The notes under the pieces: model-generated
The model's input: the letters and a program-made list of their open reading frames with translations, nothing else
What the model was told of the DNA's origin: nothing
Database searches by the model: none
Program-made: the position numbers and the translations under genes
Shown: positions 29,319 to 36,634 of the stretch, piece after piece
Position numbering within the stretch: position 1 is the stretch's first letter
How the letters are laid out: every line of letters starts with the position of its first letter
Assembly: GCA_944322565.1 (NCBI GenBank)
Contig: CALUPG010000002.1
Location: 1 to 64,000, forward strand
DNA from: an uncultured Bacteroidales bacterium
GTDB taxonomy: Bacteria; Bacteroidota; Bacteroidia; Bacteroidales; UBA932
DNA: 64,000 bases
Direction of reading: 5' to 3'

Positions 29319-30374
29319 ATGAAAACATTGAACAGATTTTTCTATGCTGCCATGACAGCATTCGCATCCGTTGCCCTTCTGGCATCCTGCGAAAAAGAGC
29401 CGCAGGGGGGGGATGATCCCACACCAGACCCGGAGCCGTCAGAGCCGACACAGCTCGCCACTCCAAGCCTTTCAGTAGAAGACCAGACAAACACATCTTT
29501 CACAGTCACCTGGAAAGCAGTCACAAACGCTGACTCATATACCTATACTCTCAACGGCGGAGCAGAGGAAACCACCACATCCACTTCAGTCGAATTCACG
29601 AGCCTCACTGCAGGTGACTATACAGTCAAAGTAAAGGCCACATCTGAGGACGAGAACTACACTGACTCAGAATGGGCAAGTACGGAAGTGACACTGGAAG
29701 AGGACGGCGGAGAAGAAACGCCTACAGGATGGGCAGGCACATGGAACATAACATCAACCCATACTCAAGTCTGGGCTCCTGACCCTGACGATAACAGATA
29801 CATCGTTCCTCAAGTAAATGAAGTAGCAAAGACCGGAACACTGACAATCACTGACGAAGGAGAAGGCCTGTATTACATTTATGGATTAAGCTCATACAGG
29901 ACAGATGCCGGAGAAGAATATCCTGCAATAGGAATGCTCGATGAGTCCGGAAATCTTCAGATATGGGCAGCACAGCTTACTAATGCTGATGAGTCTGGAA
30001 AGTATCTTGCATGGACTTCTGTCGGCCATATAACCGCAGACGGATATGCACCTTACTACAGCGGGATTAACGGTAGCTATCCTGCATTTACTTTTACATT
30101 ATCTGAAAAAACAGCAACCAGCACAGCTTATTCGTCAGGAGTAAATTTAGGAAACGGAGTCACAGGGACATTTACAGTTGTATCACTTAACTTAGTCTAC
30201 ACAGACGGACAATCCAGCTCAATTCTGGGCGACGATGCGTTTGCCGGGACACTCACTCTCTCTTATGTTTCATCCGACACATCAGCTGCAGTTCTCACAA
30301 AATCCAGCACATTAAAGGTCTATTCTCCGGTAAAGGTTGAATACCCGACAACAACATCATTTTCAGCAAGATAA
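29319..30374 (+). CDS. Fibronectin-III lipoprotein with G8 tract (paralogue 1)
   Basis: 351-aa lipoprotein. The signal peptide ends LLASC (lipidated C24), followed by an acidic Pro-rich linker, one Fn3 domain (about 45-130) and a C-terminal beta-rich domain beginning GWAGTWNITSTHTQVW. Eight consecutive G (29405-29412) lie in codons just after SCEKEPQ. A gain of one G gives TGA within four codons and a loss gives TAG after about 24, so slippage would switch the protein off. It has its own promoter and terminator and precedes the amino-sugar genes. Ligand unknown; it is probably displayed on the cell surface. Confidence 0.75.
   Translation: MKTLNRFFYAAMTAFASVALLASCEKEPQGGDDPTPDPEPSEPTQLATPSLSVEDQTNTSFTVTWKAVTNADSYTYTLNGGAEETTTSTSVEFTSLTAGDYTVKVKATSEDENYTDSEWASTEVTLEEDGGEETPTGWAGTWNITSTHTQVWAPDPDDNRYIVPQVNEVAKTGTLTITDEGEGLYYIYGLSSYRTDAGEEYPAIGMLDESGNLQIWAAQLTNADESGKYLAWTSVGHITADGYAPYYSGINGSYPAFTFTLSEKTATSTAYSSGVNLGNGVTGTFTVVSLNLVYTDGQSSSILGDDAFAGTLTLSYVSSDTSAAVLTKSSTLKVYSPVKVEYPTTTSFSAR
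29405..29412 (+). repeat. Poly-G (G8) tract in lipoprotein paralogue 1
   Basis: Eight G in a row inside codons CAG GGG GGG GAT, five codons after the lipidation cysteine. Homopolymeric G tracts in this position are classical slipped-strand contingency sites. The same length and position recur in the paralogue at 35193-35200. Confidence 0.9.
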
Positions 30375-30588: not shown

Positions 30589-32505
30589 ATGAAGCACTTT
30601 TCTTTACCAAAGGACGGCGGACTGATTGAGGCAGGACTGCCGAAAGACATTCTCCACAGCTATGAGACAATTCCGACAGAAATCTACGACACTGCCGAGA
30701 ATGCCTGTTCTGATATCGCCGGAATCATAATTTCGGCAATCAAGGAAAACAACGGAAGTGTATTCCGTCTGGGGCTCAGCACCGGAACGACTCCTGTCAC
30801 TCTGTACAGGGAGCTTGTCAGCCGATATAAGAAAGGAGAGGTATCATTCGCCGGAGTTGAGATTTTCAGCATAGATGAATACTACCCGGCCGAGACAGGC
30901 GGAAGACAAAGCCGGAATTACAGGCTCTACGATGAATTTCTCAACCATGTGGATGTAAAGAGAGAGAACATCCATATCCCTGACGGGTCGGTCAGCAAAG
31001 ACCGCATTACAGAATACTGTGCAGACTATGACAGAGCTGTCTCCGGTCTTGACCTTCTGGTCGTGGGTGTCGGAGAATACGGACAGATAGGCTTCAACGA
31101 GGCCGGAGCATCGCCCAAGAGCAGGACAAGAACAGTGCTCCTGTCATACAAGACAAGAAAGGCCCAGTCCCGCAACTTCAACGGGAATATAGCCGATACC
31201 CCGAAGACGGCAATCACAATAGGCCTTGCAACAATGATGAGCGCCAAGAAAATCATCCTCATGGCATGGGGAGAAGACAAGGCGCAGGTGGTGAAGGATG
31301 TCACGGAAGAAGCCATGACGCCTTCCTGCCCGGCATCATTCCTCCAGAGACATGAGAATATACGCATGTATGCGGACGACAATTCGGCAAGCATGCTCAC
31401 AAGGGTTGTTGCCCCGTGGCTTGTCGGACCATGCGAGTGGACACCGAAATTCGTCAGAAAGGCCGTCGTATGGCTCTGCCAGACAGTTCACAAGCCAATT
31501 CTGAAGCTCACGCATCAGGACTATATCGAAAACTCCCTCGGAGAACTTCTTGAACTCAAGGGACCATACGACAAGATAAACATCGATGTTTTCAACGACC
31601 TGCAGCACACAATCAGCGGATGGCCGGGGGGAAAGCCAAATGCCGATGATTCCACAAGGCCGGTGTCATCCAAGCCGTTCCCGAAGAGGGTGGTGGTATT
31701 CTCTCCGCATCCTGACGACGATGTCATTTCCATGGGGGGAACATTCATCCGTCTCGTCGAGCAGGGACATGATGTCCATGTCGCATATGAGACCTCAGGA
31801 AATGTTGCCGTACATGACGATGTCGTGCTCCAGCATATGGACACTGCACATGAACTCGGATTCGCCGACAAATTTGCAGAGGTGAAGGCAATCGTCGACT
31901 CAAAGAAACCGGGAGAGCCGGAGCCGCGTCCGCTTCTGAACATCAAGGCGGCCATCCGCCGTGCCGAAGCCCGCGGAGCAGTAAGATCTTTCGGCCTGAA
32001 CGAGAATACAAACGTACACTTCCTCAACCTGCCTTTCTATGAGACAGGAGGCATCAAGAAAGGAGAACGCACGCAGAAAGACATTGATATCATAATTGAC
32101 CTCCTCCAGAAAGTACAGCCGCACCAGATCTATCTTGCAGGCGACCTTGCCGACCCGCATGGCACGCACCGGGTATGTACTGAGGCCGTACTTGAGGCTC
32201 TTGACCAGCTCAGGAATGAGGCATGGCTCAAGGAATGCCATGTATGGCTCTACAGGGGAGCCTGGATGGAATGGGAACTCGGCAAAGTGGATATGGCAGT
32301 TCCGCTCAGCCCGGACGAGGTCATCAAGAAACGCCACGCCATTTACAGGCATGTGTCCCAGAAGGACATCGTACCGTTCCCTGGTGATGATTCCCGCGAA
32401 TTCTGGCAGAGAGCCGAGGACAGGACGCAGAACACGGCAAGACTCTACAACGAGCTCGGGATGGCCGAATACCAGGCTATCGAGGTCTTTGTGAAACTTT
32501 TTTAA
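30589..32505 (+). CDS. NagB-like / PIG-L (LmbE) deacetylase fusion protein
   Basis: 638-aa two-domain protein. Residues about 25-290 are a glucosamine-6-phosphate isomerase/deaminase domain, with FSIDEYYP (D96) and GVGEYGQIGFNEAG. Y164 and Q166 replace the catalytic Asp and His seen in the neighbouring NagB, so deaminase activity is doubtful. Residues about 365-610 are a PIG-L/LmbE metal-dependent de-N-acetylase domain with FSPHPDDDVISMGGT (374-378) and PHGTHR (523-528), both intact. Fusions of this kind are known in Bacteroides, annotated as glucosamine-6-phosphate deaminase. It lies 35 bp before nagB. It might deacetylate an N-acetyl amino-sugar and sense or bind the phosphate. Confidence 0.85.
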   Translation: MKHFSLPKDGGLIEAGLPKDILHSYETIPTEIYDTAENACSDIAGIIISAIKENNGSVFRLGLSTGTTPVTLYRELVSRYKKGEVSFAGVEIFSIDEYYPAETGGRQSRNYRLYDEFLNHVDVKRENIHIPDGSVSKDRITEYCADYDRAVSGLDLLVVGVGEYGQIGFNEAGASPKSRTRTVLLSYKTRKAQSRNFNGNIADTPKTAITIGLATMMSAKKIILMAWGEDKAQVVKDVTEEAMTPSCPASFLQRHENIRMYADDNSASMLTRVVAPWLVGPCEWTPKFVRKAVVWLCQTVHKPILKLTHQDYIENSLGELLELKGPYDKINIDVFNDLQHTISGWPGGKPNADDSTRPVSSKPFPKRVVVFSPHPDDDVISMGGTFIRLVEQGHDVHVAYETSGNVAVHDDVVLQHMDTAHELGFADKFAEVKAIVDSKKPGEPEPRPLLNIKAAIRRAEARGAVRSFGLNENTNVHFLNLPFYETGGIKKGERTQKDIDIIIDLLQKVQPHQIYLAGDLADPHGTHRVCTEAVLEALDQLRNEAWLKECHVWLYRGAWMEWELGKVDMAVPLSPDEVIKKRHAIYRHVSQKDIVPFPGDDSREFWQRAEDRTQNTARLYNELGMAEYQAIEVFVKLF

Positions 32506-32540
32506 AAGGTCTTTGTAAAAATTTTTAACAAACCAGAAAT

Positions 32541-33332
32541 ATGAGACTTATAATCGAAAACGACAGCAAGAAAGGCTCAGTATGGGCCGCAAGATACATA
32601 GTATCAAGAATCAAAGCCAAGGCGGCAGTCACGGACAAGCCGTTCGTGCTCGGGCTTCCTACAGGCTCGACCCCGATAGGGACATATCAGGAACTCATCA
32701 GGATGTACAAGGCTGGCGAGGTATCATTCAAGAATGTCATCACATTCAACATGGATGAGTATGTGGGACTTCCTGAATCACACCCTGAAAGCTACCACTC
32801 TTTCATGGCCGCAAATTTCTTCGACCATGTGGATGTGCCGAAAGAGAACATCAATATCCTCAACGGCAATGCTCCTGACCTTGCTGCGGAATGCGCTTCA
32901 TACGAGGCCCGAATCGAGGCTGCCGGCGGCATTGACCTCTTTATGGGAGGAGTCGGAGAAGACGGACACCTTGCATTCAACGAACCGTTCTCTTCCCTCG
33001 TGTCCAGGACAAGAGTCAAGACTCTCACATACGACACCAGAGTCGTAAACTCAAGATTCTTTGACAACGACATAGACAAGGTTCCGGCACTGGCACTGAC
33101 TGTCGGCGTAGGCACAGTGATGTCCGCCCGGGAGGTGCTTGTACTTGCCTTCGGACACAAGAAGGCCCGCGCCCTCCAGCAGGCAGTGGAAGGGGCATAC
33201 TCGCAGTCCTGCACACTGTCTGCGCTCCAGGCACACCGGCACGGCATCATAGTCTGCGACGAACTTGCAGCCGGAGAGCTCAAGGTCAACACCTACCGAT
33301 ACTTCAAAGACATCGAGAAAGACAACCTCTGA
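32541..33332 (+). CDS. nagB: Glucosamine-6-phosphate deaminase
   Basis: 263-aa enzyme converting GlcN-6-P to fructose-6-P and ammonia. Catalytic residues are all visible at the E. coli numbering: D72 in [17 protein letters not shown]141, H143 and E148 in [26 protein letters not shown] is the phosphate and allosteric-site region. It follows the fusion gene and precedes a sulfatase, making an amino-sugar catabolic locus; a hairpin with T-run follows its stop. Confidence 0.95.
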
Positions 33333-33353
33333 TTGGAAATCTGACATCAGAAG

Positions 33354-33392
33354 CCGGGAAGTCCACAAGACACACTGGATTTCCCGGTTTTT
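33354..33392 (+). terminator. Terminator between nagB and the sulfatase gene
   Basis: CCGGGAA (33354-33360) pairs with TTCCCGG (33381-33387), with TCC/GGA extending the stem, followed by TTTTT. It lies 16 bp before the sulfatase ATG, so the sulfatase may be read by leakage or from a promoter I cannot see. Confidence 0.65.
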
Positions 33393-33408
33393 CGCAATAA
33401 TCCGGGAC

Positions 33409-35028
33409 ATGAGCAGAAAACAGAAATTCGTCCCGCCTGCGGAAAGAATCCTTCCGGCAGCGGGGACAGCAATAATAGGAACTGGAACCGTCATAGCAGG
33501 AACAGTCTTGGCCGGCTCAGCACTGACATCATGCCAGAATAAAGAACAGAAACAGTACAACATTGTCTACATAATGACAGATGACCACTCGTTCCAGACA
33601 ATGAGCTGCTATGACGAAAGGTACACCGAAACACCGAATCTGGACAGAATTGCTGATGAAGGAGTAAGATTCACCAACAGTTTCGTGGCAAACTCGCTGA
33701 GCGGACCCAGCAGGGCATGTATGCTCACTGGAAAGCATTCCTGCGCAAACGGCTTCTACGACAACACCAACTGCGTCTTCGACGCTTCTCAGCAGACATT
33801 CCCAAAACTGCTTCAGAAAGCAGGATACGAGACTGCAGTCATCGGCAAATGGCATCTTGAGAGTCTTCCCACAGGATTCGACCACTGGGAGATTGTTCCC
33901 GGACAGGGCGACTACTACAATCCTCTGTTCATCACCCGGCAGAACGATACGATACAGAAACACGGTTACATCACGGACATAATCACGGACGATGCGATAG
34001 ACTGGCTTGACAATGGGCGGGACAAGGACAAGCCGTTCTGCCTGCTTGTCCACCACAAGGCAATTCACCGCAACTGGATGGCCGACACGGCACATCTGGC
34101 CCTCTACGAAGACAAGACATTTCCTCTGCCTGAAACCTTCTGGGATGACTATTCCGGACGCCAGGCTGCCGCAGCCCAGGAAATGAGCATCTTCAAGGAC
34201 ATGGACCTTGCCTACGACCTCAAGACGGTCACGGAAGAAACAGGCAAGACTGGTCTGGGACAGGCATACGCAGGCATGCTGGAAAGACTTGATCCCGAGC
34301 AGAGGACGGCATGGGACAGATTCTATGCCACAGTCATTGAAGACTTCAAGAAAAAGTCCCCCAAGGGCAGAGCTTTGGCCGAATGGAAATTCCAGAGGTA
34401 CATGCGCGACTATCTCAAAGTAGTCAAGTCGCTGGATGACAATGTAGGAAGGCTGCTTGACCATCTTGAGGAAGAGGGTCTCCTTGAGAATACCCTTATT
34501 GTATATACCTCAGATCAGGGATTCTACATGGGAGAGCACGGATGGTTCGACAAAAGATTCATGTACGAGGAATCAATGCGCACACCTCTTATAATGAGAC
34601 TGCCTGACAGATTCGTCAGAGAAAACGGACTGGAAGCGCACGACATCACGGAACTGGTTCAGAACATAGACTACGCCCCGACATTTCTGGAACTCGCCGG
34701 TGCTGAAATACCTGATGACATACAAGGAGAATCTCTTGTCCCGCTTCTGAAAGGAGAGCATCCGGACAATTGGAGACAGTCCTTATATTATCATTTCTAT
34801 GAATATCCGGCCGAACATAGTGTGAAGCGGCATTACGGCATCCGTACGGACAGATACAAGCTCATACATTTCTATCATGACATAGACGCCTGGGAGCTCT
34901 ACGACCTGCATGAAGACCCGAATGAGCTGCATAACCTCTGCGGACAGCCGGGCTATGAGAATCTCTCAGACAGCCTCAAGGTGCAGCTGGAAGGACTCCG
35001 GAAACAATACGGGGACAAAATATTCTGA
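33409..35028 (+). CDS. Serine-type sulfatase (S1 family), probable amino-sugar sulfatase
   Basis: 539-aa exported type I sulfatase. The signature SGPSRACMLTG contains S98-x-P-S-R, so formylglycine would come from Ser and need a radical-SAM anSME maturase, which is not in the window. MTDDH (D58, D59), the HHKAIHRNW loop and YTSDQGFYMGEHGW supply metal and sulfate ligands. The N-terminus has a long signal with a lipobox-like ALTSC (C42). Placement beside nagB suggests action on sulfated GlcNAc or GalNAc of mucin or glycosaminoglycans; the substrate is inference. ATG at 33409 is chosen since a longer reading contains the nagB end and the terminator. Confidence 0.85.
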   Translation: MSRKQKFVPPAERILPAAGTAIIGTGTVIAGTVLAGSALTSCQNKEQKQYNIVYIMTDDHSFQTMSCYDERYTETPNLDRIADEGVRFTNSFVANSLSGPSRACMLTGKHSCANGFYDNTNCVFDASQQTFPKLLQKAGYETAVIGKWHLESLPTGFDHWEIVPGQGDYYNPLFITRQNDTIQKHGYITDIITDDAIDWLDNGRDKDKPFCLLVHHKAIHRNWMADTAHLALYEDKTFPLPETFWDDYSGRQAAAAQEMSIFKDMDLAYDLKTVTEETGKTGLGQAYAGMLERLDPEQRTAWDRFYATVIEDFKKKSPKGRALAEWKFQRYMRDYLKVVKSLDDNVGRLLDHLEEEGLLENTLIVYTSDQGFYMGEHGWFDKRFMYEESMRTPLIMRLPDRFVRENGLEAHDITELVQNIDYAPTFLELAGAEIPDDIQGESLVPLLKGEHPDNWRQSLYYHFYEYPAEHSVKRHYGIRTDRYKLIHFYHDIDAWELYDLHEDPNELHNLCGQPGYENLSDSLKVQLEGLRKQYGDKIF

Positions 35029-35097: not shown

Positions 35098-36333
35098 ATG
35101 AAAACAACATTGAGAGAATTGCTGTCATTAGCTGCAGCAGCATTGGCAGGAACAGTTCTTCTTGCATCCTGCGAGAAAGAACCTCAGGAACCGGGGGGGG
35201 CGGCGGTGCCTCTAGCAAAACCTGAAATAATCATCGGGGACCAGACCCCTACATCCTTTACAGCAACATGGACGGCAGTTGAAAATGCAGATTCATACAC
35301 ATACATTCTGGATGACGGACAGGAAAAGTCCACAAAGGAGACATCCGTGAAATTTACCGGACTGGAATCAGGCAACTACACGATAAAGGTAAAGGCGACT
35401 TCTGCAGACAAGGAATCTTTCTCCGATTCCGAATGGGCGGAAGCGAGAGTATCGCTGCGCGAACCGGACCAGCTTGCCGCGCCTGTCCTGTCCATAACTG
35501 AACAGGACATGACATCCTTCACCGTAGCATGGGAGGCGGTTGAGAATGCCGCTTCATACAAATATGCACTCAATGACGGACAGGAGCTGACGACAGAGGA
35601 ACTCTCCGTATCATTCCCAGATCTCACACCGGGTGAATATACGGTGAGAGTCATGGCTGTAGCCACGGATCCGAACTTCAAGGATTCAGCATGGTCGGAC
35701 ATAAAAGTTGTACTGAAAGCCCCTGAGAAGCTTGACACCCCTGCCCCAACAGTGCAGGACAAGAGCGCAACTTCATTTACCGTCTCATGGGTAGCCGTGG
35801 AAAATGCCGGAGGATATGTATATATGCTTGACAACGGACAGGAAGAGGAGACGGACGGAACTTCTGTCACATTCAACGGACTCACGCCAGGAACGACTTA
35901 TACTCTGAAAGTAAAGGCAACTTCCGACAACGAGGCCTACATTGATTCAGACTGGTCCGAACCGCTTGAAGTGACCCTTGAGAATGAAATAGAAGAAAGC
36001 TTCAGCATGACACTGATCAAGGACTTATTCACAAATCAGGAAAGCCTCAGCTGGAGCGCAACAGGATCCGGCGTAACCGCTGTCAATTTCATTGCATTCG
36101 AGGCAGACCGCTATGATGACAACACCATAATAGACATGATGATCACCCAGTCACAGAGCTTTACATTCACATCCACAGATATAGCAAGGCTTGCAGAAGG
36201 AAAGGCAGTAAATTACAACAGCAGCGGGCTGACAACCGGCATTCCATACGATATCTGCTGCTATGTCAGATTTGAAAGCGGCAGCGAACAGCTGTACAAG
36301 CTGCGCGGCACTCCTGGAGAGCCTATCGATTGA
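35098..36333 (+). CDS. Fibronectin-III lipoprotein with G8 tract (paralogue 2), C-terminally truncated
   Basis: 411-aa lipoprotein with signal peptide ending LLASC (lipidated C25) and SCEKEPQ as in paralogue 1. Three Fn3 domains follow (about 38-120, 124-208, 212-296), then a further beta-rich domain (about 300-400). A G8 tract (35193-35200) follows the cysteine; one extra or missing G gives a stop within about ten codons. The gene ends at a TGA (36331-36333), but the same frame beyond encodes a domain like that of paralogue 1 (GEESGVEAWTGTWTISSTQ), interrupted by TAA. ATG at 35098 is chosen to fit the signal peptide. Confidence 0.75.
   Translation: MKTTLRELLSLAAAALAGTVLLASCEKEPQEPGGAAVPLAKPEIIIGDQTPTSFTATWTAVENADSYTYILDDGQEKSTKETSVKFTGLESGNYTIKVKATSADKESFSDSEWAEARVSLREPDQLAAPVLSITEQDMTSFTVAWEAVENAASYKYALNDGQELTTEELSVSFPDLTPGEYTVRVMAVATDPNFKDSAWSDIKVVLKAPEKLDTPAPTVQDKSATSFTVSWVAVENAGGYVYMLDNGQEEETDGTSVTFNGLTPGTTYTLKVKATSDNEAYIDSDWSEPLEVTLENEIEESFSMTLIKDLFTNQESLSWSATGSGVTAVNFIAFEADRYDDNTIIDMMITQSQSFTFTSTDIARLAEGKAVNYNSSGLTTGIPYDICCYVRFESGSEQLYKLRGTPGEPID
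35193..35200 (+). repeat. Poly-G (G8) tract in lipoprotein paralogue 2
   Basis: Eight G inside codons CCG GGG GGG GCG, seven codons after the lipidation cysteine. Same length and place as in paralogue 1. Confidence 0.9.
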
Positions 36334-36537
36334 GGAGAGGAATCAGGAGTGGAGGCATGGACAGGAACTTGGACGATTTCATCCACTCAATCATTCTCTT
36401 GGGCTAAGGATTCCGCAAATCCAGGATATGTCATATCATAACTGACTGACACTCCGAAAACCGGAGTCATCACCATAGCCGCAGACCCTGATGCCGAGAA
36501 CAGTGTAATATATCCGTCTGCTGTTTATGCAAGATAG
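36334..36537 (+). pseudogene. In-frame remnant of a C-terminal lipoprotein domain
   Basis: Read in the same frame as the preceding lipoprotein, this encodes GEESGVEAWTGTWTISSTQ, then YVIS, a TAA (36439-36441), then LTDTPKTGVITIAADPDAEN and, before TAG, SAVYAR. It aligns with paralogue 1 (GGEETPTGWAGTWNITSTHTQ, YIVPQVNEVAKTGTLTITDEGE, end FSAR). The TGA aligns with a Gly codon and the TAA with a Gln codon, each one base from sense. It is shorter than the intact domain, so there is also an internal deletion. No start codon precedes it. Confidence 0.75.
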
Positions 36538-36568
36538 GCCTGACAAACAGGATTAAGCTCAACAAACG

Positions 36569-36634
36569 GGAGACCTGCACCGTGGAATTTCAGACATGAA
36601 GCTGAAAATTCCCTTCGGGTCTCCTGTTTTTTTT
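36569..36634 (+). terminator. Nested-hairpin terminator of the lipoprotein 2 locus
   Basis: GGAGACC (36569-36575) pairs with GGTCTCC (36618-36624) around an inner stem GGAATTTCAG/CTGAAAATTCC, and T8 follows (36627-36634). Confidence 0.75.

Follow-up and report, generated by a model that had tools for sequence, protein, structure and literature searches.

The question raised by this locus is whether two runs of eight guanines (G8), each placed near the start of a lipoprotein gene, are sites of a reversible on/off switch or an accident of codon choice. The window, i.e., the whole stretch of 64 kb that was analysed, belongs to a Bacteroidales genome (G000) of 2.18 Mb in 19 contigs, with an estimated completeness of 99%. 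Among the named genomes of our collection it is closest to another uncultured Bacteroidales MAG (G061), and the DNA identity between the two at tract loci is about 92–98%. The first-pass annotation had reported two G8 runs at matching places in paralogous lipoprotein genes, which the sequence confirms; neither strand of the window has any other run of seven or more G. The features considered are the following:

29319–30374, plus strand: first paralogue, an intact lipoprotein of 351 aa with one fn3/Y_Y_Y repeat and a C-terminal domain
29319–29390, plus strand: signal peptide and lipobox LLAS-C24 of the first paralogue, read from the sequence, the lipobox being predicted from its pattern
29405–29412, plus strand: G8 tract of the first paralogue, codons 29–32 (Q-G-G-D), same length in G061
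35098–36333, plus strand: second paralogue, a lipoprotein of 411 aa with three fn3/Y_Y_Y repeats (translation; Pfam fn3 and Y_Y_Y above cut-off; orthologue L057:4001-5935 in G061)
35098–35172, plus strand: signal peptide and lipobox LLAS-C25 of the second paralogue, read from the sequence, the lipobox being predicted from its pattern
35193–35200, plus strand: G8 tract of the second paralogue, codons 32–35 (P-G-G-A), same length in G061
36331–36333, plus strand: premature stop TGA of the second paralogue, where G061 has GGA (Gly 412) in the alignment
36334–36570, plus strand: remnant of a decayed C-terminal domain, identified in alignments with G061, end approximate

Both paralogues carry a signal peptide, a lipobox and acidic residues past the cysteine (LLASCEKE; LLASCEKEPQ), the pattern of Bacteroidales surface lipoproteins, and are thus predicted to be exposed at the cell surface. 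The second starts with MKTTLRELLSLAAAALAGTVLLASC25EKEPQEPGG, and its tract opens with the last base of codon 32, seven codons past C25, as had been noted. The fn3 model scored 64 bits for P0001 (cut-off 25), while in P0002 Y_Y_Y alone passed its cut-off and fn3, at 21.3, stayed under it. A change of the tract by one G would be drastic in both genes. In the second paralogue, seven G lead to TAG four codons past the tract and nine G to TGA seven codons past it, in agreement with the early stops first described; in the first paralogue, seven G lead to TAG 21 codons on and nine G to TGA immediately. The same shift to an early stop upon a change of one unit was seen at other tract genes examined.

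The two paralogues are 54–55% identical in their N-terminal part and 35% in the C-terminal domain (using the intact G061 orthologue for the latter). At aligned identical residues the codons agree in only 28 of 70 cases (10 of 31 for fourfold residues), so that synonymous positions are near saturation. Both nevertheless hold G8 within a few codons of the same spot, in a different residue context, and its presence in two such diverged genes would fit retention or repeated gain under selection. The state of the second paralogue is less favourable to this idea. The gene span proposed for it, 35098–36333, is not a natural one, since 36333 closes a premature stop; the G061 orthologue is intact (645 aa), and the remnant downstream contains further stops and, compared to G061, lacks approximately 0.5 kb near 36512. 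The domain lost is the one that is present in the first paralogue. The second paralogue is decaying in G000, so that the tract in it may have been left behind. For the window lipoprotein, the genus gave no near orthologue other than that of G061, with only repeat-domain matches elsewhere, and G000 itself contains one other, weak family match (G000:C4:156657). The genes between the paralogues (30589–35028) encode a fused glucosamine-isomerase/PIG-L protein, a second glucosamine-6-phosphate isomerase and a sulfatase, which suggests an amino-sugar or sulfated-glycan locus.

That two G8 runs in 64 kb are hard to explain by chance, as first proposed, holds for their placement (see below) and not for their number. 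At the genomic rate of 22 runs of at least eight G per 2.18 Mb, the probability of two in 64 kb is 0.14. Besides, dinucleotide shuffles of the window are expected to yield 7.7 G7 windows, more than the 4 observed, and we therefore dropped the window count as evidence against chance.

The run-length spectrum of the genome is a different matter. Exact pattern searches of the whole of G000 counted 7 runs of G7, 20 of G8 and 2 of G9 or longer, i.e., G8 far over the expectation based on G7, as in contingency loci. In a 1.26-Mb sample of G000, which provided the background statistics and was partly picked around known tracts, coding strands contained 413 G5, 52 G6, 2 G7, 13 G8 and 1 G9, while synonymous-codon shuffles within each gene are expected to give 586, 133, 31, 8.6 and 1.9, respectively; the sampled G8 figure is inflated by the inclusion of stretches near known tracts, and the same G7 gap is seen in the whole-genome counts. 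The spectrum is thus bimodal, with G6 and G7 strongly avoided in the coding strand before G8 returns. Ratios of G7:G8:G9+ were similar in other members of the genus (G032 1:21:6; G029 4:18:16; G010 4:13:5), whereas two genomes of other families gave 64:6:2 (G042) and 106:26:10 (G043). The tracts also crowd at the 5′ end of genes: of the 15 G000 genes with in-frame G8, 9 have it within their first 50 codons, compared to 245 of 2070 Gly-Gly pairs (11.8%; Fisher P about 1e-5) and 10.7% of G5 runs, and in G029 the figure is 10 of 15. In the 18 residues past the cysteine of 90 sampled lipoproteins, GGGGGG encodes 3 of 13 Gly-Gly sites, all three being G8, while among all Gly-Gly pairs it occurs in 21 of 2070 (approximately 1%).

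The 15 genes of G000 with an in-frame tract on the sense strand code mostly for surface functions, which, together with the 5′ placement, is what is seen in contingency loci:

SusC/TonB- or Oar-like receptors (four): L006, L015, L019, L020
SusD (one): L014
Lipoproteins (five): L004, L005, L016, L023, L024
Putative surface-polysaccharide enzymes (three): L002 (sugar transferase), L007 (acyltransferase), L010 (glycosyltransferase 4)
Remaining: one AraC regulator and one O-methyltransferase

A search of G000 for the SCEKE lipobox followed by a G run, as suggested by the first-pass annotation, returned just the two window loci; searching for any lipoprotein with a G run behind the lipobox gave a third, L016 (SCSEKDDPNKGGDE). 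In several other species of the genus, at least seven lipoproteins in all carry the tract behind the cysteine, in frame in L196, L197, L268, L273 and L274, with L184 and L192 in G029. L277 (G167), a fimbrillin-like (Mfa_like_1) lipoprotein, has G8 ten codons past the cysteine; it is out of frame, and a long reading frame stays open downstream. Genus-wide, the lipobox-to-G8 spacing pattern was matched 91 times compared to 49 for a reversed-pattern control (a modest enrichment of approximately 1.9-fold), hand-summed counts in which G9 runs enter twice and most raw matches are not lipoproteins. The tracts are not confined to lipoprotein tethers, as they also occur in signal peptides and in the N-termini of TonB receptors, of which G029 has at least 11 with a tract. 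Two ECF sigma factor genes, L320 (G093) and L132 (G032), and a FecR-like anti-sigma gene, L291 (G093, out of frame), have N-terminal tracts, in all three cases G8 or G9 inside the first 20 codons.

Some G8 and G9 runs are intergenic and often followed by TA (GGGGGGGGGTAAA, GGGGGGGGGTATAA), as in L189/L299, L194/L327, L301, L322 and L003; these are possible promoter-spacing tracts. Two of them stay G9 between G029 and G093, with differing flanks at one. In G061, a similar short sequence with G8 occurs at three places (L084, L098, L105), perhaps a repeat element.

Comparison of G000 and G061 showed 13 of 14 matched tracts, including both window tracts, to be G8 in both genomes; length variation at the window loci, whose absence the first-pass annotation had named as part of what would refute it, was thus not seen in this one comparison. 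The exception is a SusC-like gene with near-identical flanks, whose G000 copy (L015) is in frame with G8 and whose G061 copy (L102) is shifted out of frame by G9, a natural pair of the two states. Three further tracts differ through substitution, at approximately the background rate, and we therefore do not take conservation between these two genomes as proof of selection. At larger distances (65–88% DNA identity, G029 vs G093 or G078), the position of the tract is shared by orthologues (L174/L311, G9; L191/L293, G8; L148/L197, G8), this comparison being limited to pairs in which both members have one. The signature recurs in some species of the genus with G9 and G10 tracts, of which G029 and G093 have many, and with genes both in frame and frameshifted. 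In G029, G093 and G167, out-of-frame G8–G10 tracts precede recognisable TonB-receptor, BACON-lipoprotein, FecR and fimbrillin-like domains. The frameshifted tract genes are:

SusC-type genes: L133 and L188 (G10), L154, L294
Other genes: the BACON lipoprotein L305, the fimbrillin-like lipoprotein L277 and the FecR gene L291

These frameshifts come from metagenome-assembled genomes and could also be pseudogenes or assembly errors; the out-of-frame calls for L018 and L021 (which differ little between frames) and for L099 (in frame in its lipoprotein frame) are unreliable. The majority of coding tracts are in frame, and there is no even mix of the two states.

Several explanations can be considered for these observations. 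The tracts behind the lipobox could simply be glycine-rich flexible tethers, in which GGG-GGG arises by chance codon choice; the region looks disordered, both window tracts encode Gly-Gly and the window count shows no excess. On the other hand, GGG accounts for 17% of glycine codons (464-kb sample), and the enrichment of GGGGGG in tethers, the occurrence of tracts outside tethers and above all the near absence of G7 next to a peak at G8 disfavour this reading, which we consider improbable. A somewhat better, though still unlikely, candidate is a slow, one-way inactivation hotspot, i.e., loss of function and not a reversible switch. This would agree with the presence of MutS1, with a length of only eight and with only one change of length among 14 tracts in genomes a few percent apart, and a review sets such loci apart from true phase variation (PMC11868660). 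A plain hotspot, however, would be counter-selected like G6 and G7, while G8 and G9 tracts survive across diverged orthologues and the out-of-frame genes still have a long open frame downstream and domains that can be recognised. In several species the peak is sharp and lies at exactly eight; this, and the intergenic tracts followed by TA-rich sequence, could also point to transcriptional slippage or to an RNA or DNA element that requires exactly eight G, but codon phase, flanks and gene position all vary and relatives have G9 and G10, making an action via transcript or polymerase very improbable.

We thus favour the reading that the window G8 runs belong to a genome-wide set of poly-G contingency tracts subject to slipped-strand phase variation, with a probability of roughly two in three. 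Slipped-strand mispairing at replication would add or remove one G; with eight G the frame would be kept and the lipoprotein made, whereas with seven or nine translation would halt just past the lipid-anchor cysteine and leave no surface domain. The set would act on the outer surface, i.e., on SusC/TonB receptors, SusD, surface lipoproteins and capsule enzymes, and in related species also on ECF sigma/FecR regulators. Our observations cover the tracts, their excess at eight, their 5′ placement, gene classes and frame effects, one natural change of length and the frameshifted genes of relatives; slippage as the mechanism, reversibility, population mixtures, the switching rate and the switching of both window lipoproteins are inferred. 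Evidence from the genome and the genus partly supports the selection for the tract first proposed, namely the G7 gap and G8 peak, the 5′ crowding, the recurrence behind lipoboxes, the two frame states and the preservation of tracts in diverged orthologues. For the second paralogue itself it is at most a possibility, considering that both window tracts are G8 in G061, the only other close genome, that MutS1 is present and that this paralogue has lost its C-terminal domain.

The MutS1 gene of G000 is intact and full length, which rules out loss of mismatch repair as the cause in this genome. It is also present in G029, while in G032 (91% complete; 21 exact G8, one G7) the MutS1 model returned only a MutS2-like match. 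MutS1 should slow slippage and may explain why eight is the common length. Given MutS1 and a usual tract length of eight, switching probably proceeds more slowly than in Campylobacter. In C. jejuni, experiments have shown phase variation at poly-G tracts of at least eight (PhasomeIt, PMC6321876); this species is without functional mismatch repair and has poly-G lengths peaking at 9–10 (PMC6321876; review PMC8355987). As in C. jejuni, the tracts described here are coding-strand poly-G, lie mostly inside ORFs of surface and glycan genes and occur in in-frame and out-of-frame states; they differ in their peak at eight, in the MutS1 of G000 and in their targets, SusC/SusD, surface lipoproteins and ECF/FecR regulators. 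The haemoglobin receptors HmbR/HpuAB of Neisseria meningitidis (PMC3786947) are likewise outer-membrane uptake receptors with poly-G within the reading frame, but in an unrelated lineage, whereas tracts here lie in SusC-type signal peptides and N-terminal extensions. In prokaryotic genes, 5′-placed homopolymeric tracts of A/T are over-represented and those of G/C generally under-represented (PMC2831843); the 5′ bias was taken there, as here, as selection for frameshift control, but here the signal is G8.

The route of phase variation described for gut Bacteroidales is DNA inversion (PMC11868660). In Bacteroides fragilis, a member of the same order, phase variation of the same outer-membrane target class, SusC/SusD, is invertase-driven according to Nakayama-Imaohji 2009, as cited in that review, in contrast to the homopolymer slippage proposed here. 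We found no report of homopolymer phase variation of SusC, SusD or lipoproteins in Bacteroidales in the open-licence literature. Poly-G contingency loci as such are already known; their control of SusC/SusD and lipoproteins in Bacteroidales would be new, pending read-level proof.

Overall, the sequence patterns suggest that roughly twenty slippage-prone tracts in G000 could turn receptors, lipoproteins and capsule genes on or off, and G000 would offer a natural case of G8 tracts maintained beside an intact MutS gene. It also seems somewhat more likely than not that a large genus of uncultured gut-type Bacteroidales has a poly-G phase-variable repertoire, which in some species would comprise about 20–40 tracts in each genome. 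Its targets would be SusC/SusD, surface lipoproteins, capsule enzymes and ECF/FecR regulators, and the tracts would sit either in the signal peptide or right after the cysteine of the lipobox. Slippage, and not DNA inversion, would then switch nutrient uptake, phage receptors and antigens, in cells with intact mismatch repair and with tracts that, at eight G, are unusually short. Pipelines that search short reads for inversions would overlook such a homopolymer system. If real, it comprises dozens of loci in each genome that are predicted to turn on and off, that could be read from metagenome data already available and that lie in receptors which determine diet use, sensitivity to phages and visibility to the immune system.
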